Part shown: positions 14,344-58,053 of the stretch, in pieces
Position numbering within the stretch: the first letter of the stretch is position 1
Layout: every line of letters begins with the position of its first letter
Assembly (NCBI RefSeq): GCF_003096355.1
Contig: NZ_QEKI01000003.1
Coordinates: 372,001 to 436,000, forward strand
Length of the DNA: 64,000 nucleotides
Reading direction: 5' to 3'
DNA from: Pontibacter virosus
GTDB taxonomy: Bacteria; Bacteroidota; Bacteroidia; Cytophagales; Hymenobacteraceae
Made by a program: the position numbers and the translations under genes
The notes under the pieces: generated by a model
The model's database searches: none
What the model was told of the DNA's origin: nothing
What the model saw: the letters and a program-made list of their open reading frames with translations, nothing else

Positions 14344-15417
14344 ATGACTGTTTTGCGGTACCTTTTATGGCCTTTTTCGATCTTGTACGGCGGTATCATG
14401 CTGTTGCGTAACTGGCTGTACGACAAGGGTTGGTTGCGTTCAGAGCGATTTGATGTGCCGGTTATTTCGGTCGGGAACCTGACCGTTGGAGGCACTGGTA
14501 AAACACCACACGTTGAATACCTTTTGCGGCTGATATCGGATAAAAAAACGGCCGTGCTGAGCAGAGGCTATCGTCGGAAAAGCAAAGGATTCGTGCTGGC
14601 TGATGATCGTGCGACGGCAGAAACGCTGGGGGATGAGCCGTTTCAGTATCACCTTGATTTTCCGGATGCGCTGGTGGCAGTGTGCGAGAGCAGACCGGCA
14701 GGAATAGCTCAGCTGCTTCGCATACAGACAGCCACAGAGGTCGTACTATTGGACGATGCCATGCAACACCGACCTGTTAGCCCTTCCTTTAATCTAATGC
14801 TGACGGATTATGGACGTCCATTCTACAAAGACCATGTGCTACCCACTGGCTTATTGCGAGAACCACGGCAGGGAGCCCAACGGGCAGATGCTGTTATCGT
14901 GACCAAGTGTCCTGCCGATCTGTCTCCAAGTCAACTAACAGACATTGCTAAACGTGTGCAGCGGTATAGCCGGCATGTTACGCCAGTTTTCTTCAGCGCC
15001 TTTCGTTATGGCAAACCAGTAGGTATAGGCAATGCGTCGCAGGTATCGGCCCGGGTGGTGGTGGTGACAGGTATAGCGAACGCTAATCCACTACTTCACC
15101 ATCTGACTGAAAACGGGTATGAAGTGGTACACCATCTGGAATATCCGGATCACTACAGCTATACCTTGGCGGATATTGAAAAGCTGCAAGCTTTGCTGGA
15201 ACAAAAGGATAGTAAAGGTTTAAGTATCATCACAACGCGGAAGGATGCAGTAAAACTAACAGATCGCGCACTCGCAGCCCTGACCGGGCAGTTGCCGGTT
15301 TTCTACGTGCCGATTGAGGTGTATTTTCTGCAGCACGGGAAGCTATTTGATCAGATGATAAGACAGCACATCAGCTCCTTTGGAATGGCTAAACCCGTTG
15401 CGGCAGATAAAATTTAA
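14344..15417 (+). CDS. lpxK: Tetraacyldisaccharide 4'-kinase LpxK
   Basis: The 357-residue inner-membrane-associated kinase has an N-terminal hydrophobic helix. The family P-loop lies in VISVGNLTVGGTGKTPHVEYL (about residues 40-60), and the SRGYRRKSKGF segment and VLLDDAMQHR follow. It phosphorylates the lipid A precursor disaccharide to make lipid IVA. With lptE this shows the cell makes lipopolysaccharide. A porin gene follows 66 bp downstream with its own promoter-like box. Identity is firm. Confidence 0.97.
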   Translation: MTVLRYLLWPFSILYGGIMLLRNWLYDKGWLRSERFDVPVISVGNLTVGGTGKTPHVEYLLRLISDKKTAVLSRGYRRKSKGFVLADDRATAETLGDEPFQYHLDFPDALVAVCESRPAGIAQLLRIQTATEVVLLDDAMQHRPVSPSFNLMLTDYGRPFYKDHVLPTGLLREPRQGAQRADAVIVTKCPADLSPSQLTDIAKRVQRYSRHVTPVFFSAFRYGKPVGIGNASQVSARVVVVTGIANANPLLHHLTENGYEVVHHLEYPDHYSYTLADIEKLQALLEQKDSKGLSIITTRKDAVKLTDRALAALTGQLPVFYVPIEVYFLQHGKLFDQMIRQHISSFGMAKPVAADKI

Positions 15418-15471
15418 AGGAAAACAGCTTATACTTGGTATGGGTACGTATACGGGTTGCACGAAAATCAC

Positions 15472-15479
15472 TAATTTTG
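15472..15479 (+). promoter_or_regulatory. -7 promoter box immediately before the porin GTG
   Basis: TAATTTTG fits TAnnTTTG and ends only 4 nt before the GTG start codon. Transcription would then begin at or next to the start codon. Confidence 0.5.
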
Positions 15480-15483
15480 GCTT

Positions 15484-17367
15484 GTGAAAAGTAAGCTCTT
15501 AGCAGTAATATGGCTCCTGGTGGGTCTGGCTGGCGCCGCGCAGGCACAGTCCCAGATCGTTGACGACACGACAAAAGTGCTCTACAGTCCTAAAACGACG
15601 TTGCAGCTTTACGAAAACGACGTGTTGGAAGGGCGCTACCTCTTGCAGCGCATCGATACCAGCATCAACAACATGCAGAACGAGCGCTACTGGTACAAAG
15701 ACACGGTGCATTTCCAGCACCTGGGTAACGTGGGCACGGCCTCCAAGCCCATTCTTTTCAGAGCGCCCGATAAGATCGGCGCACGCTTGGGCAAAAACGT
15801 GTTTGACCGCTATGCCTATAACCCACGCACGATCAATTACTACGATACACGATCCCCTTACTCCCATATTTTCTATATACAAGGTCAGCGGGGAGAGCAG
15901 GTTTTTGAAGCCACCCATGCCCGCAACATCACCCCACGCTGGAACGCAGGGGTAGCGTATCAGATCATTTCTGGTAACAGGCAGATAGGGGTGTCTAATT
16001 TAAGACGCGATGGTTACCTGAGCAGCCAGGCGGTGAAGGCCTTTACCCATTACCGCTCTGAAGATGAAAAGTATCACCTCTTTGCCAATTTCACCCACCT
16101 CAACCACGAACAGATCGAATATGGTGGTATTGCGCCCGGGGAGGCGAATCGTTTTCTGTTCCAGCAGGCGATCACTAACCTGAACCAGGCATCTACCCGC
16201 GAACTACGCAACAACTATCACCTGATGCACATCTACAAACTCGCAGGTGAAAACCTAAAGCTCTTCCACAGCTTTGACTGGGGAAGCCAGCAAGATAATT
16301 TCCAAGATGATGCGATTCCAAGATTGGCCGATGAAAACCGCACACTGGTTTTTTATCCGCGTGTACTGGAAACCTTTAATCGCACAGACGACCGTACCGC
16401 TTACCGCGAAATGGAGAATGTGGCAGGAGTAACCGGCAACAACAAACTCTCCTTTTATAAAGCCTATGCCAAATTCCGTAACTCCAAGATAGATTACCGG
16501 GTGCTTAGTGTGGCAGAGCAGGATACCACTATTGAGGCATTCAAAGAAACAAACGAGAGCCTGAACCAACTGTTTGTGGGTGGTGAGTTCCGGCTCATGT
16601 ATAGGCAGGCATTGCTATCATTTGACGGGGAGTTTCAGATGACGAATGACTACAAAGTAGGAGCTACGGCCAAACTGGGGCCACTGCAGGGGCGTGTTAC
16701 CCGTGTACTGCGCTCACCCTCCCTTGTAGAGCAGCGATTGATCAGTAACCACTTTAACTGGATCAACTACTTCAATAATTCCGTGACAGATCGCCTGGAA
16801 GCCACTTTTGCAGGCAAACTAGGCGATCGGCAATATGTAAGGCTGACCGGTCATTTCAACCACATCAAGCGCCACATTTACTTCGACCTGAATGCAGAGC
16901 CAGCACAGTACCAGGATAATCAGCAGGTGTTTGGGGCTGAACTGCAGCATCACATTCGTTTCGGCAAGATCCATTTCGAAAATTTTGTAGCTTATACCAA
17001 CACCAGCGAAGCTCCTGTCATACGCATACCGGAGTGGCTTTTTGACTCCAAGCTATACTTTGAAGGGGCTTTGTTCAGGAGAGCACTGGTAGGTCAGTTT
17101 GGTGTGCAGGTATACACACCAACTGCTTATATGGCCGATGCCTATATGCCGGTAACACAGCAGTTTCACTTGCAGAACACCTTTACCATCCAGCCCTACC
17201 CGGTAACGGATGTTTTTATCACGGCAGATATCAAGAGCCTGAACGTGTTCTTAAAGATGTCTAACATCGCTTCCGACCTGACAGCGCCAGGGTATTTCAC
17301 TACGCCATTCTACCCAGGTATGCGCACGAGCTTCGTGTTCGGCATCAAGTGGATGTTCTTCGATTAA
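15484..17367 (+). CDS. Putative outer-membrane porin (Porin_10 type)
   Basis: The 627-residue protein starts with a signal peptide (LLAVIWLLVGLAGAAQAQ). It then looks like a beta-barrel: alternating aromatic strands throughout, ending in FGIKWMFFD with the terminal aromatic residue of outer-membrane proteins. The N-terminal plug-like part with RYWYKDTVHFQHLGNVGTA and SPYSHIFYIQGQRGEQVF matches the Bacteroidota putative porin family. The start is GTG; no in-frame ATG lies near it and the signal peptide fixes it. Solute specificity is unknown. miaE begins 13 bp after its stop. Confidence 0.88.
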   Translation: MKSKLLAVIWLLVGLAGAAQAQSQIVDDTTKVLYSPKTTLQLYENDVLEGRYLLQRIDTSINNMQNERYWYKDTVHFQHLGNVGTASKPILFRAPDKIGARLGKNVFDRYAYNPRTINYYDTRSPYSHIFYIQGQRGEQVFEATHARNITPRWNAGVAYQIISGNRQIGVSNLRRDGYLSSQAVKAFTHYRSEDEKYHLFANFTHLNHEQIEYGGIAPGEANRFLFQQAITNLNQASTRELRNNYHLMHIYKLAGENLKLFHSFDWGSQQDNFQDDAIPRLADENRTLVFYPRVLETFNRTDDRTAYREMENVAGVTGNNKLSFYKAYAKFRNSKIDYRVLSVAEQDTTIEAFKETNESLNQLFVGGEFRLMYRQALLSFDGEFQMTNDYKVGATAKLGPLQGRVTRVLRSPSLVEQRLISNHFNWINYFNNSVTDRLEATFAGKLGDRQYVRLTGHFNHIKRHIYFDLNAEPAQYQDNQQVFGAELQHHIRFGKIHFENFVAYTNTSEAPVIRIPEWLFDSKLYFEGALFRRALVGQFGVQVYTPTAYMADAYMPVTQQFHLQNTFTIQPYPVTDVFITADIKSLNVFLKMSNIASDLTAPGYFTTPFYPGMRTSFVFGIKWMFFD

Positions 17368-21961: not shown

Positions 21962-23281
21962 TTAATGTTTCAATACCTCTATATATGTTTCTTCGGCCTC
22001 CATCAGGCCCTGCTCGTTGATGCCGGTGAGTCGTACGTGCTTTGTTTCATTTACTAAAACAGGGTCGTATTTCGCCGCTACACGCACATAATTCTCCGTC
22101 CAACCTTCCATCACGCCATCCTTCACATCATCCTCAAAAAGCACCGTGAATTCACGACCAACATTTTGCTCGTAAAAGTAGCGTTTCTTTTTTTCAGAAA
22201 GGATGCGCAGCATATCGGCCCGGCGATTGCGGTCTTTGATGCTAACTTTACCAGGCATAGCAGGCGCCATCGTGTTCTCGCGCTCCGAATAAGGGAACAC
22301 GTGCAGGTAGCTTACATCAAGGCCATTGATGAAGTTATAAGTCTCCAGGAAGTCTTCTTCTGTCTCGCCCGGGAAGCCCACGATTACATCGACACCAATG
22401 CAGCAATGCGGCATCAGGGCTTTGATACTGGCAACACGGTCAGCATACAACTCACGCAGGTAGCGGCGGCGCATCAACTTAAGTATCTTGTTCGAACCTG
22501 ACTGCAAAGGTATGTGGAAGTGCGGCATAAAGCGCTTGCTCTGACTCACAAACTCGATAATCTCGTCCTTGAGCAGATTAGGCTCTATTGAAGAGATGCG
22601 GAAGCGGTCTATACCTTTCACCTTGTCGAGTTCCTGTACCAGATCGTAAAATGTTTCTACACGCTCCCCGTCCTGCAAACCAAAGTCACCGGTATTCACA
22701 CCTGTCAGCACAATTTCCTTCACGCCTGACTCGGCTATTTCATTTGCAGAGCGCACTACATTGGCGATACTGTCGGAGCGGCTGTTGCCACGCGCCAGTG
22801 GAATGGTGCAGAAAGTACAGGAGTAGTCGCAGCCGTCCTGCACCTTCAGGAAAGTGCGGGTGCGGTCGCCGAAGGAGTAGGAGTTATGGAAGGTATTGGC
22901 CTCACTGATGGCGCTGGCATATACCTGTGGCTGCTCTTTCTTTTCGAAAGTTTCCAGAATATCAACCAACTGAAACTTCTCAGCGGCGCCCAACACGGCG
23001 TCAACCCCCGGAATCTCACTGATCTCTGTCGGTTTCAGCTGTGCATAGCAGCCCACAATGGTTATAAATGCGTTAGGAGAATATTTTTGAGCCTCCTTTA
23101 CGATTTTACGGCATTTCTTATCTGCGTTGTCAGTAACAGAGCAGGTATTGATCACGTAAATGTCGGGCGTTTCGGTAAACTCTACCTTTTCAAAACCACG
23201 CTCCTGGAATATCCTCCCGATCGTGCTGGTTTCAGAGTAGTTTAGCTTACAGCCCAGTGTATAAAATGCTACCTTTTTCAT
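21962..23281 (-). CDS. mtaB: tRNA t6A37 methylthiotransferase MtaB
   Basis: The ~439-residue radical-SAM methylthiotransferase has N-terminal cluster cysteines at C11 (YTLGCKLNYSE), C47 (NTCSVTDNADKKC) and C78 (GCYAQL). The radical-SAM C151/C155/C158 lie in QDGCDYSCTFCTIPLARG. The CKLNYSE and TDNADKKCR signatures separate MtaB from MiaB. It makes ms2t6A37 in tRNA. I chose the ATG at 23281, because the extra seven codons upstream encode a TATCTTTG promoter box. Confidence 0.96.
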   Translation of the reverse strand: MKKVAFYTLGCKLNYSETSTIGRIFQERGFEKVEFTETPDIYVINTCSVTDNADKKCRKIVKEAQKYSPNAFITIVGCYAQLKPTEISEIPGVDAVLGAAEKFQLVDILETFEKKEQPQVYASAISEANTFHNSYSFGDRTRTFLKVQDGCDYSCTFCTIPLARGNSRSDSIANVVRSANEIAESGVKEIVLTGVNTGDFGLQDGERVETFYDLVQELDKVKGIDRFRISSIEPNLLKDEIIEFVSQSKRFMPHFHIPLQSGSNKILKLMRRRYLRELYADRVASIKALMPHCCIGVDVIVGFPGETEEDFLETYNFINGLDVSYLHVFPYSERENTMAPAMPGKVSIKDRNRRADMLRILSEKKKRYFYEQNVGREFTVLFEDDVKDGVMEGWTENYVRVAAKYDPVLVNETKHVRLTGINEQGLMEAEETYIEVLKH

Positions 23282-23291
23282 AATCAGGGTG

Positions 23292-23299
23292 CAAAGATA
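23292..23299 (-). promoter_or_regulatory. -7 promoter box of mtaB
   Basis: TATCTTTG on the minus strand matches TAnnTTTG and ends 10 nt before the ATG, giving a leader of about five nucleotides. It lies inside the longer open frame, which supports the ATG at 23281. Confidence 0.65.
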
Positions 23300-23420: not shown

Positions 23421-25259
23421 CTACTTCCTGACAAAGTCTTCGAAAGAGTACTGCATATAAGCTTTTCCCAGCTCCACCTGTTCGGGCGTGACCCCTTTGC
23501 CCTTGATGATAGGCTTCTCCGCTACATTGTCGAAGGACAATACTTTGCCAGGTGTGATAAAGGTGAAGCCGTCCCGGAAAACATAAAACGCAAAAGGATA
23601 GGAGGTTGGTGCCAACAGGTTACGGCCCCACTTGAAGTCCTGGGAAGGAAGGTTCAGCTGATAAAGCAGGGTAGTGGCAACATCGGTTTGGCTTCCAATG
23701 GTGGAAATCGTTTTTCCTTTAGTAGCTAAAGCACCGCCCGTTAGCACAAAGGGGATACGGAACTTGGTGCTACGGTAATTCGGATCGTCATAAGGCAGCG
23801 GATGGCCGTGGTCCGCCACCAGCACGATCAGCGTTGAATCCCACCACGGCTGCTGACGCGCCTGCGCAATAAATTGACCCAGCGCCCAGTCGGTATAGTA
23901 AACGGAGTTCTTGAATTTGTCGCTGATCTGGTCGCCTTTGAATTTGGCAGGTATAGGAATCTCGAAAGGCTCGTGGCTGCTCAAGGTATAGACGGTACTG
24001 AAAAATGGCTGTTTTTCCTGCTTAAGATCCTGCAGCACACGCTCGAATAGCACATGGTCGTGAGCGCCCCACTTGGAATTATAGCTTTCGGCGGGAAAAT
24101 CATGCTTGTCGATCAGCCTGTCAAACTTGCCATTCTGTAGGTATGAGCGAATGTTGGCAAACTCCAGTTCACCGCCATAGTAAAAGGACGTACCATATCC
24201 GGCTTGTTTGAAAACGTGCCCCAGATGTGGCAGTTTCTCTGTTTTCTTCGGGTTTTTAATTATTGAGGTGGTGGTCTGCACCGGATAACCACTCAGTAAA
24301 GCCACCATGCCCTTTTCGCTGCGGTCGCCACTGGAGTAGAGCTTAGAAAAGCTGATTCCCTCTTTGGCCAGTTTGTCCAAATTGGGTGTGACGCCCGGCT
24401 CCCCACCCAGATGCTTCACATACTTGGCTGTATAACTCTCCAGGATAATAAAGAGCACATTAGGTTTTTCTACCCGAAGAACTTTCTCCGAAGAGTCAGC
24501 AGTAGCAGCGTACAGCCCGGCCACTTTCTCGGCGGCTGTTTCGTAGTCCATGTACTGATAGGGGTTGCGCGTCTCCTCATTATACTTCAGCATGGTGTCC
24601 ATCAGGTTCCACGGCATGTTAAGACCGGCATGGTTGGCATAGGGGTTCTCAGAGAAGTAGACCACACTTTGGTTGATTGGAATCTGCTGCCAGCCGCCCC
24701 GCATAGGCAAAATCAACACGGCTGCGAAAAGCAAGGCTATACCTGCATACTTCAGCTTTGAGAAGTTCAGGTGGTAATTCTTATAGTCGAAGGTATAGCG
24801 GAACAGTAACGCGAAGACCAGGCTGGTAGCAAATGCGATGACGGTGAGCAGCAGGATAGGGGCTGCTGCTGCTGAGGCCGCCATTTCACCCGGTGTGTTC
24901 AGGTATAGCATGGGCGTGGAGTCAAGTCGGAAGCCCCAATAGGTATAGAGTTCGAGGTCAACGGCCATCAACACAGACAACAACACCAATATAGTATATG
25001 TATAGTAGCGGATAAACTTGCGAACCTGCAAGCCCGGAAACAGGGCAGTGGCCAGAATAGCCAGAAAAGGGATGGCACTTACATAAGAGCTAAAAGATAA
25101 ATCCAGCCGCAGACCTTTTGAGAAAATGGTCCAAAGGTCCTCTTGAGACAACTCTTGAGTGCGGTTGTCGTGGTAAAGCAGGAAAATAGCCCTGGTTGCA
25201 ACAAAATAGAGCACCCAGAACAGAAAGTATAATGGTTGGTATAAAAGGCTTCGTTTCAC
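23421..25259 (-). CDS. LTA-synthase-family membrane sulfatase (phosphoglycerol transferase-like)
   Basis: The ~612-residue protein has about five N-terminal TM helices (up to residue ~215) and a large periplasmic sulfatase/alkaline-phosphatase domain. Visible motifs are VLFIILESYTAKYV, SKLYSSGDRSEKGMVALLSGYP with the likely catalytic Ser/Thr, YTLSSHEPFEIP and VLVADHGHPLPY for metal binding. The family transfers phosphoglycerol or phosphoethanolamine groups; the substrate in LPS-bearing Bacteroidota is unclear. The start is GTG at 25259, set by the membrane segment and by a TATATTTG box 5 nt upstream. Confidence 0.9.
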   Translation of the reverse strand: MKRSLLYQPLYFLFWVLYFVATRAIFLLYHDNRTQELSQEDLWTIFSKGLRLDLSFSSYVSAIPFLAILATALFPGLQVRKFIRYYTYTILVLLSVLMAVDLELYTYWGFRLDSTPMLYLNTPGEMAASAAAAPILLLTVIAFATSLVFALLFRYTFDYKNYHLNFSKLKYAGIALLFAAVLILPMRGGWQQIPINQSVVYFSENPYANHAGLNMPWNLMDTMLKYNEETRNPYQYMDYETAAEKVAGLYAATADSSEKVLRVEKPNVLFIILESYTAKYVKHLGGEPGVTPNLDKLAKEGISFSKLYSSGDRSEKGMVALLSGYPVQTTTSIIKNPKKTEKLPHLGHVFKQAGYGTSFYYGGELEFANIRSYLQNGKFDRLIDKHDFPAESYNSKWGAHDHVLFERVLQDLKQEKQPFFSTVYTLSSHEPFEIPIPAKFKGDQISDKFKNSVYYTDWALGQFIAQARQQPWWDSTLIVLVADHGHPLPYDDPNYRSTKFRIPFVLTGGALATKGKTISTIGSQTDVATTLLYQLNLPSQDFKWGRNLLAPTSYPFAFYVFRDGFTFITPGKVLSFDNVAEKPIIKGKGVTPEQVELGKAYMQYSFEDFVRK

Positions 25260-53574: not shown

Positions 53575-53582
53575 TATCTTCG
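53575..53582 (+). promoter_or_regulatory. -7-like box immediately before the NPP-type gene
   Basis: TATCTTCG differs from TAnnTTTG at one position and ends 4 nt before the ATG at 53587. Confidence 0.45.
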
Positions 53583-53586
53583 CCGC

Positions 53587-54846
53587 ATGAAACAGATCTT
53601 CGTTTTGCTGGTTTGCCTGCTCTGGCATGGGCTTGCATTCGCACAAGTTGATACGGTGCAGCGCGTCATCTCTGACAGGTATAACAGCCCGGCGCAACAG
53701 GAAAAACCTTATGTCATCCTGATCTCAGCCGATGGCTTCCGCTACGATTACGCCGACAAATACGACGCTCAATTCCTGAAATCGAAGCGGGCGCAGGGTA
53801 TAGAAGCGGAGTCGATGCTACCGGCCTTTCCGTCTAAGACTTTCCCGAACCATTATTCCATTGTGACGGGGCTCTACCCGGCCAGCCATGGCCTGATCAA
53901 CAATTACTTTTACGACCCGCAGCGCAAAGAGCACTATACCATGCGCGACCGCAGCAAAGTGGAAGATGGCAGCTGGTATGGCGGTACGCCGCTTTGGGTG
54001 CTGGCTGAGCAACAGCAAATGGTGGCGGCCAGCTTTTTCTGGGTTGGTTCAGAAGCACCAATTCAAGGTATACTGCCAACTTACCATTACCAGTACAGCG
54101 AAGTGATGCCGATCGAACGCCGCATCCAGACAGTCGTAGACTGGTTGAATCTGCCAGAAGATAAACGTCCGCACCTGATCACTTTTTACCTGCCCGAAGT
54201 AGATCATGCCGGTCATCGCTACGGTCCGGATGCGCCTCAAACCAGGCAGGCTGTTTTGGAACTGGATAAGCACATGCAAATGCTAACGGAGGCCGTAGCC
54301 AAAACGGGGCTCCCTGTCAATTATGTATTCGTATCAGACCACGGCATGCTTAAAGTAGATACTGAGAATACGCTACCCATGCCAGCAGCCATCGATACAG
54401 CCAAGTTTATGGTTTCCGGAGGAGGTATGGTCGTGGAGTTGCATGCGAAGGATAAGAAAGCCGTAAAGCCAACCTACCGCAAGTTGAAGAAAGAAGCAAA
54501 GGACTATCAGGTATACCGGAAAAACAAAATGCCCAAGCACCTGCATTATGGCGCTAAAGACGACAAGTATAGTCGTGTGGGGGACATCCTGCTGCTGTCA
54601 GATGCCCCGAAGGTGTTCCATTTTTCATCACGGCCGCCATCACCCGGTCAGCATGGCTACGATGCCACACAAGTGAAAGAGATGCACACCGTATTCTATG
54701 CCTGGGGACCAGCCTTCAAGCAAGGAGTTAAAGTTGAAACCTTTGAAAACGTGGATGTATACCCGCTGATCGCAGAGATTTTAGGCTTGCCTTATACCTT
54801 TAAAATTGACGGGAGCAGACACCTGATCGAGAAAGTGCTACAATAA
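53587..54846 (+). CDS. Ectonucleotide pyrophosphatase/phosphodiesterase (NPP) family protein
   Basis: The ~419-residue exported protein has a signal peptide (IFVLLVCLLWHGLAFAQ). The NPP-type catalytic core shows ILISADGFRYDYADKY and PAFPSKTFPNHYSIVTGLYPASHG, where the Thr nucleophile lies in SKTFPN. TFYLPEVDHAGHRYGP and VSDHGM supply the metal ligands. It cleaves phosphodiester or pyrophosphate bonds in the periplasm; the substrate is unknown. I chose the ATG at 53587; the frame extends six codons further but covers the promoter-like box. Confidence 0.92.
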   Translation: MKQIFVLLVCLLWHGLAFAQVDTVQRVISDRYNSPAQQEKPYVILISADGFRYDYADKYDAQFLKSKRAQGIEAESMLPAFPSKTFPNHYSIVTGLYPASHGLINNYFYDPQRKEHYTMRDRSKVEDGSWYGGTPLWVLAEQQQMVAASFFWVGSEAPIQGILPTYHYQYSEVMPIERRIQTVVDWLNLPEDKRPHLITFYLPEVDHAGHRYGPDAPQTRQAVLELDKHMQMLTEAVAKTGLPVNYVFVSDHGMLKVDTENTLPMPAAIDTAKFMVSGGGMVVELHAKDKKAVKPTYRKLKKEAKDYQVYRKNKMPKHLHYGAKDDKYSRVGDILLLSDAPKVFHFSSRPPSPGQHGYDATQVKEMHTVFYAWGPAFKQGVKVETFENVDVYPLIAEILGLPYTFKIDGSRHLIEKVLQ

Positions 54847-57292: not shown

Positions 57293-58036
57293 TCAGCAAA
57301 GCTTCCTGTCATTCCAGCTCATCCCGCTTCTGCCTTTCTCGCTGGGGTAAAGGGTCATGACCGGATCCGATTGCCATACCGCTTTGCTGTCAATATCCAT
57401 GATGGAGAGGCAGCCTGTATAGCCGGCACCGGTGTCCAGCATGATCAGATTATCCATATGCAACGGAACTGTCTGCTTATTGTCCAGCAGGATGGTAGGG
57501 GTATGACCGATATAGACTTCTTTATAGCCGTTGATGTGAAGCGGATGCCCTTTCTGATAGCTGTTGTAGTGGTGTTCTATAAATTCCCGACTCCAGATCA
57601 GGGTATATGCATCTGTTTCTGCCACAGGTTTATTGGTGTCGAAGCCGGCATGCACAAACAGGATGTTGTCCTCGGTGATCAGGTATAGCTTTGCCTGCTG
57701 CAATAGCGCCAGGTGCTTCGGAGGCATGGGCTTACTTTCTCCATAAGAGGCAACAGTAGCTTCGCCTCCCTGTCGAAGCCAGCTTTTTAATTCGGCTTCC
57801 TGTGTTAACTGACCACTGTAATAGGCCATAGCCCACTGGTCGTGGTTGCCGAGCAGGTATACCAGGTGCTTTACTTTCAACAGCAGGTCTATACTTTCTT
57901 TTGTCTCCGACCAGCCATCCACCACATCTCCCAGAAAGATCAGTTGGTCTTTTTCTTCGTCCAACCCACACCGATCCAGGCACTGCACCAGTGCTTTATA
58001 ACCCCCGTGGCTATCGGATGTGACAAACCTTTTCAT
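57293..58036 (-). CDS. PPP-family serine/threonine protein phosphatase-like metallophosphoesterase
   Basis: The 247-residue protein has the PPP motifs: TSDSHGGYKAL (D-H), LIFLGDVVDGW (GDxxD) and LLGNHDQWAMAYYSG (GNHD). Two late His-containing motifs follow in FVHAGFDTN and YIGHTPTILLD. It hydrolyses phosphate esters, perhaps phosphoproteins or dinucleoside polyphosphates. The first motif has SDSHGG instead of the usual GDIHG. A TACCTTTC promoter-like box lies 9 nt upstream. The 272-bp gap downstream holds nothing I can support. Confidence 0.9.
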   Translation of the reverse strand: MKRFVTSDSHGGYKALVQCLDRCGLDEEKDQLIFLGDVVDGWSETKESIDLLLKVKHLVYLLGNHDQWAMAYYSGQLTQEAELKSWLRQGGEATVASYGESKPMPPKHLALLQQAKLYLITEDNILFVHAGFDTNKPVAETDAYTLIWSREFIEHHYNSYQKGHPLHINGYKEVYIGHTPTILLDNKQTVPLHMDNLIMLDTGAGYTGCLSIMDIDSKAVWQSDPVMTLYPSEKGRSGMSWNDRKLC

Positions 58037-58045
58037 AATGTACGT

Positions 58046-58053
58046 GAAAGGTA
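58046..58053 (-). promoter_or_regulatory. -7-like box of the phosphatase gene
   Basis: TACCTTTC on the minus strand differs from TAnnTTTG only at the last base and ends 9 nt before the ATG. Confidence 0.4.

Follow-up and report, generated by a model that had tools for sequence, protein, structure and literature searches.

Promoter boxes beside the start codon suggest leaderless or nearly leaderless mRNAs for three conserved genes of Pontibacter

Three genes of Pontibacter virosus, encoding a porin, a lipoteichoic acid (LTA)-synthase-like protein and a type I phosphodiesterase/nucleotide pyrophosphatase (NPP), carry a -7 promoter box only four or five bases before the start codon, and this geometry is retained at their relatives. 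The explanation that best fits the sequences, and which we regard as quite probable, is that the three genes have ordinary sigma-A promoters that give rise to leaderless or nearly leaderless transcripts. The genes lie in a 64,000-nucleotide stretch of contig NZ_QEKI01000003.1, hereafter the window, and a search of the whole window against Rfam at the gathering threshold gave no match. The number of bases between the -7 box (consensus TAnnTTTG) and the start codon is denoted d. The first-pass annotation had described boxes close to the start codon at these three genes and at two more, and all five sites were found as described, with an exact box at the porin, LTA-synthase-like and mtaB genes and a single mismatch at the NPP and phosphatase genes:

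15472..15479, + strand, -7 box TAATTTTG of the porin gene, exact match to TAnnTTTG
15484..17367, + strand, porin gene, Porin_10 family (Pfam PF14121), with GTG as the predicted first mRNA codon
25265..25272, - strand, -7 box TATATTTG of the LTA-synthase-like gene, exact match to TAnnTTTG
23421..25259, - strand, LTA-synthase-like gene, sulfatase superfamily (PF00884), GTG start
53575..53582, + strand, -7 box TATCTTCG of the NPP gene, one mismatch to TAnnTTTG
53587..54846, + strand, NPP gene, type I phosphodiesterase/nucleotide pyrophosphatase (PF01663), ATG start
23292..23299, - strand, -7 box TATCTTTG of mtaB, exact match to TAnnTTTG, 10 nt before the ATG at 23281
58046..58053, - strand, possible -7 box TACCTTTC of the metallophosphatase gene, one mismatch, 9 nt before the ATG at 58036

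The box of the porin gene is separated from its GTG at 15484 by the spacer GCTT (d=4), that of the LTA-synthase-like gene, read on the minus strand from 25272 to 25265, is followed by CAGCC and the GTG at 25259 (d=5), and that of the NPP gene is followed by CCGC and the ATG at 53587 (d=4). In Flavobacterium johnsoniae, transcription is reported to start 4-5 nt after the box at 241 of 434 candidate promoters, a distance that was also the authors' own criterion for a probable promoter (PMC6847099), and in F. psychrophilum the box is placed at -12 to -5 (PMC9723704). Because the spacings of 4, 5 and 4 equal this distance, which is borrowed from Flavobacterium, a genus of another order than Pontibacter, the mRNAs of all three genes should start at or beside the start codon, as the first-pass annotation had proposed; conserved spacing, described below, also supports the proposal. 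The porin and NPP mRNAs would then begin with the first or second base of the start codon, and the LTA-synthase-like mRNA with its first base or with the base just ahead of the codon. According to the proposed mechanism, promoters of the sigma-ABfr type would drive the three genes, the -7 box would set the transcription start 4-5 nt downstream, at or within 1-2 bases of the start codon, and the mRNAs would thus carry a 5'-terminal AUG or GUG. Translation would follow the leaderless route, in which the ribosome binds the 5' end directly and without Shine-Dalgarno contact, a contact with which Bacteroidota mostly dispense.

A -33 element (TTTG) was sought by eye only: none was seen at the porin gene, and a TTTA lies 19 nt before the box of the LTA-synthase-like gene. 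This element is reported to be far less evident in F. johnsoniae (PMC6847099). A pyrimidine at -1, the expected signature of a start site, was rejected as a marker, being no commoner at d=4-5 (51/71) than at d=14-40 (190/268).

Conservation is most complete at the porin gene. Seventeen loci were found, 15 in Pontibacter and two in Adhaeribacter, and the window protein shares 85-88% identity with nine named Pontibacter records and 56-77% with six others. The box, the 4-nt spacer and the GTG are kept at all 15 Pontibacter loci, even at a protein identity of 56%, while the DNA further upstream mostly differs in the distant loci; the geometry was not seen at the two Adhaeribacter loci. Immediately 5' of the box, at 15456-15471, lies a block, GAAAATCAC, that is present in 11 of the 15 Pontibacter loci and as variants in the other four, with an earlier GTTG in most loci; it may represent an AT-rich -18 element or the binding site of a regulator.

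The loci also bear on where translation begins. If the start codons were misassigned and the real starts lay at other in-frame codons, the genes would have an ordinary leader or the box would fall inside the gene, and it is true that GTG starts are less frequent than ATG starts and that sequence alone cannot prove a start codon. At the porin gene, however, the TAA of the box is itself an in-frame stop 12 nt 5' of the GTG, and in all 15 Pontibacter loci the GTG is preceded, at 6 or 12 nt, by an in-frame stop, with no start codon in between; the GTG also directly precedes an apparent signal peptide, judged by eye from the translation. The clear N-termini that had been claimed for all five products hold fully for the porin and the phosphatase, whereas an upstream in-frame start codon precedes the first stop in the window at the other three: a GTG 42 nt upstream at the LTA-synthase-like gene, a TTG 18 nt upstream at the NPP gene and a TTG 21 nt upstream at mtaB. 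The upstream start codon of the LTA-synthase-like gene is nevertheless found in none of eight aligned relatives, and at four of nine NPP relatives (L041, L043, L045 and L046) no start codon occurs from the ATG back to the upstream stop. At these four loci the box at d=3-8 lies or ends in that stop. Together with the class-wide excess of boxes at d=4 over d=9 before ATG and GTG and not before TTG, presented below, these observations make misassigned starts very unlikely.

The match of the LTA-synthase-like protein to the NCBIfam lipoteichoic acid synthase model is far under the cut-off of that model. For this gene, 11 of 17 loci were matched, and three were set aside because the match began at residue 77-79; in the eight relatives with an aligned N-terminus, TATATTTG and the GTG are present without exception, with a spacer of 5 nt at seven loci and 4 nt at one. 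For the NPP gene, 60 genomes of the family were searched and 59 gave some match, and after exclusion of weak matches the comparison comprised nine full-length loci of 52-93% identity plus the window's own copy. Seven of the nine relatives have a box at d=3-5 that matches the consensus fully or with one mismatch, although the surrounding upstream DNA varies; the exceptions are L043, with a box at d=8, and L047, from another genus, without a box at d=3-5. The near-box geometry of the three genes is best explained, from these alignments, as kept by selection within Pontibacter.

A conserved box could still be idle, being a chance match or a weak second site while transcription comes from further upstream. 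The neighbour of the porin gene (14344-15417) is co-directional and only 66 nt away, and read-through from it could therefore also yield a leadered mRNA; the gene at 14344, taken for comparison, has its own box at d=19, an arrangement other than that of the porin. Boxes with one mismatch also occur further upstream, at d=46 in the 66-nt porin gap and at d=47 and 184 in the 263-nt gap of the LTA-synthase-like gene. The LTA-synthase-like and NPP genes, however, diverge from their neighbours and should therefore need a promoter of their own. The near box is the single exact box in the gaps of the porin and LTA-synthase-like genes, and TATCTTCG is the sole box with at most one mismatch in the 168-nt gap of the NPP gene. 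Since the conserved parts are precisely the box and its spacing, idle near boxes appear unlikely, though less so than misassigned starts, and active near-box promoters remain the preferred reading.

The first-pass annotation had stated that mtaB and the phosphatase gene leave only a few nucleotides between box and start codon, and this agrees with spacings of d=10 and d=9 and predicted leaders of about 4-6 nt. The mtaB product matched TIGR01579 (MtaB) above its cut-off, and 12 of the 13 orthologous loci retain the mtaB box, with d=9-10, three further matches at 27% identity having been excluded as paralogues. From these spacings, mtaB is predicted to have a leader of only about 5-6 nt, and the phosphatase gene, which encodes a calcineurin-like product, a leader within about 4-6 nt. 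The start codon would therefore not stand at the 5' end of either mRNA, and neither gene is counted as leaderless.

The frequency of near boxes within Pontibacter was determined for the window's own genome (G000), in which a simple gene caller gave 608 genes over 836 kb, and for a 400-kb sample of a second Pontibacter (G038), with a gene regarded as box-bearing if an exact box lies no more than 60 nt from an ATG or GTG in frame. In the former, 79 of the 608 genes are box-bearing and six of these have the box at d=3-6 (8%), a small excess over one in an out-of-frame control and two in a reversed-box control; in the latter, the figure is one of 40 (2%). The idea that exact near boxes are strongly in excess within Pontibacter itself was rejected on these counts, and the case for the window genes is carried by conservation and not by frequency. 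Over the whole of G000, counts of ATGAA after the box were 12 at d=4 (control 2) and 5 at d=9 (1), those of GTGAA were 6 (0) and 4 (1), and those of TTGAA were 5 (1) and 2 (2).

A comparison of the two Pontibacter genomes yielded 183 reciprocal-best pairs, with 154 genes and 210 common start positions. Conserved near-consensus boxes number six at d=4, against a mean of 0.96 elsewhere in d=0-50; none of 29 permuted boxes reached six at d=4, and the reversed box reached four, these four pairs proving on inspection to be without a TAnnTTTG-like box. The d=4 pair at C3:414128 and the d=5 pair at C3:301382 resemble starts inside a longer reading frame; with at least one of the six d=4 pairs apparently internal, the true number is about five. 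Between d=6 and d=12 there is a single conserved near-consensus box, a near absence that would fit an avoidance of very short leaders in Pontibacter; mtaB, at d=10, would be an exception.

The search was extended to 99 genomes of the class to which Pontibacter belongs using the pattern TAHHTTTG, d bases, a start codon and AA, with the reversed pattern as control. Class-wide, a box at 4 nt outnumbers a box at 9 nt before ATG and GTG, and the reverse is true for TTG, which is a new observation. For ATG, 1587 occurrences at d=4 (reversed control 315) compare with 775 at d=9 (397); for GTG, 451 (259) compare with 239 (226); and for TTG, 486 (400) compare with 836 (455). Genome by genome, the d=4 count is higher than the d=9 count in 74 genomes, lower in 16 and equal in 9 for ATG, higher in 69, lower in 19 and equal in 11 for GTG, and higher in 15, lower in 74 and equal in 10 for TTG. 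As TTG at d=4 is somewhat above control, and markedly so in single genomes (19 against 1 in G208 and 5 against 1 in G000), the rule is a preference for ATG and GTG and not an absolute one. TTGAA nine bases after TAHHTTTG is itself nearly twice as frequent as its reversed control. Across 89 genomes from other classes of the phylum, ATG counts, taken without summed reversed controls, were 373 at d=4 and 436 at d=9, with the former higher in 29 genomes, lower in 40 and equal in 20; ATG is thus not in excess at d=4 in these genomes as a whole, although single ones such as G060, with 9 at d=4 and 0 at d=9, do exhibit the excess. In the same search, 29 genomes of the Pontibacter class gave 435 at d=4 and 267 at d=9, of which 10 genomes of family f6 contributed 156 and 135.

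Some families of the class appear to be richer in near boxes than Pontibacter. Stretches with called genes were sampled (L068-L086 from G210, L126-L135 from G245 and L156-L165 from G190), and the share at d=3-6 was calculated over the box-bearing genes, defined as above. In family f65, the share is 41 of 92 in G210 (45%; 201 genes called; out-of-frame control 6) and 13 of 36 in G245 (36%; 74 genes; control 0), and in family f45 it is 16 of 36 in G190 (44%; 139 genes; control 1). Two families of the same class thus have the near-box geometry at 36-45% of their box-bearing genes, which is also a new observation. Lower shares were found in f73 (G218; 8/53, 15%, control 0) and f59 (G240; 0/42, control 0). 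Family f6 was rejected as a rich family (G161; 7/49, 14%, against a control of 4), as was f70, whose whole-genome count is high but whose sample contains one of 22 (G215; control 1). The distance profile of G210 peaks at d=4-5, and we take its near-box genes, from their translated N-termini, to include the housekeeping genes dnaX and ribulose-phosphate epimerase. It has a somewhat better than even chance of being true that in several lineages of the class, chiefly f65 and f45, leaderless expression is a main mode, housekeeping genes included, with a mycobacteria-like preference for ATG and GTG over TTG.

These lineages also bear on whether TAnnTTTG at d=4 is a promoter at all or a translation signal, that is, a ribosome-binding element, given that Bacteroidota are reported to lack Shine-Dalgarno sites and to use other upstream signals (PMC6847099). 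Sites at d=3-6 avoid tight operon-internal positions, a promoter-like location that argues against a translation signal: a same-strand neighbour within less than 20 nt occurs at 1 of 39 near-box genes in G210, 0 of 12 in G245, 2 of 16 in G190, 0 of 8 in G218 and 0 of 6 in G000. For genes without a box, the corresponding figures are 36 of 102, 12 of 33, 62 of 100 and 54 of 94 in the first four genomes (164 of 329 taken together) and 105 of 530 in G000. Some of this contrast would arise anyway, since the coding sequence of a neighbour is a less likely place for an AT-rich box. We give the translation-signal reading hardly any credence and retain that of a promoter.

Mycobacterial leaderless genes use a different sigma factor and -10 box. 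They are nevertheless alike in having a 5'-terminal ATG or GTG and not TTG, and are distinct from the leadered class (PMC4633059); leaderless expression was shown there by experiment, whereas it is inferred here and the restriction to ATG and GTG is only a statistical preference. Within the phylum, 5.5% of F. psychrophilum mRNAs are reported to be leaderless (PMC9723704), leaders under 10 nt are put at about 3.7% in Bacteroides thetaiotaomicron (PMC7366714), and 87% of F. johnsoniae leaders exceed 10 nt (PMC6847099). The Pontibacter shares of 8% and 2% resemble the published 5.5% and 3.7%, and the three window genes are ordinary members of this known minority class and not a new kind. The F. 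psychrophilum and B. thetaiotaomicron transcripts share with Pontibacter the phylum and the TAnnTTTG promoter, but were mapped experimentally and in other orders, whereas those of Pontibacter are deduced from sequence and conserved in three genes. An earlier survey, which likewise used a box near the start codon to identify leaderless genes, reported them in one of 37 Bacteroidetes/Chlorobi genomes, at 2.4% of its genes; it detects only Pribnow-like boxes, a limit acknowledged by its authors, who nevertheless consider extensive misses unlikely (PMC3160421). With the Bacteroidota box in place of the Pribnow-like box, the class has a clear peak. Leaderless and/or S1-based initiation had already been suggested for Bacteroidetes in a comparative study (PMC5397173). 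In the literature searched, mostly outside subscription journals, no map of leaderless transcripts for Pontibacter, Cytophaga, Chitinophaga or Hymenobacter was found among the matches listed.

In Escherichia coli, leaderless GUG is reported to be much weaker than AUG, less so on natural mRNAs, whereas GUG is functional in Mycobacterium smegmatis and Streptomyces (PMC9031893), which makes the two conserved GTG candidates described here noteworthy. The position of the promoter allows start codons to be placed, such as the GTG here, which gene-calling programs might overlook. If leaderless expression is indeed a main mode in f65 and f45, the low shares of Bacteroides and Flavobacterium would be unrepresentative of the class. 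How Bacteroidota ribosomes, mostly without Shine-Dalgarno sites, find the start codon is still being worked out, and conserved leaderless genes, together with lineages that seemingly rely on them, would be direct test cases for initiation in this phylum.
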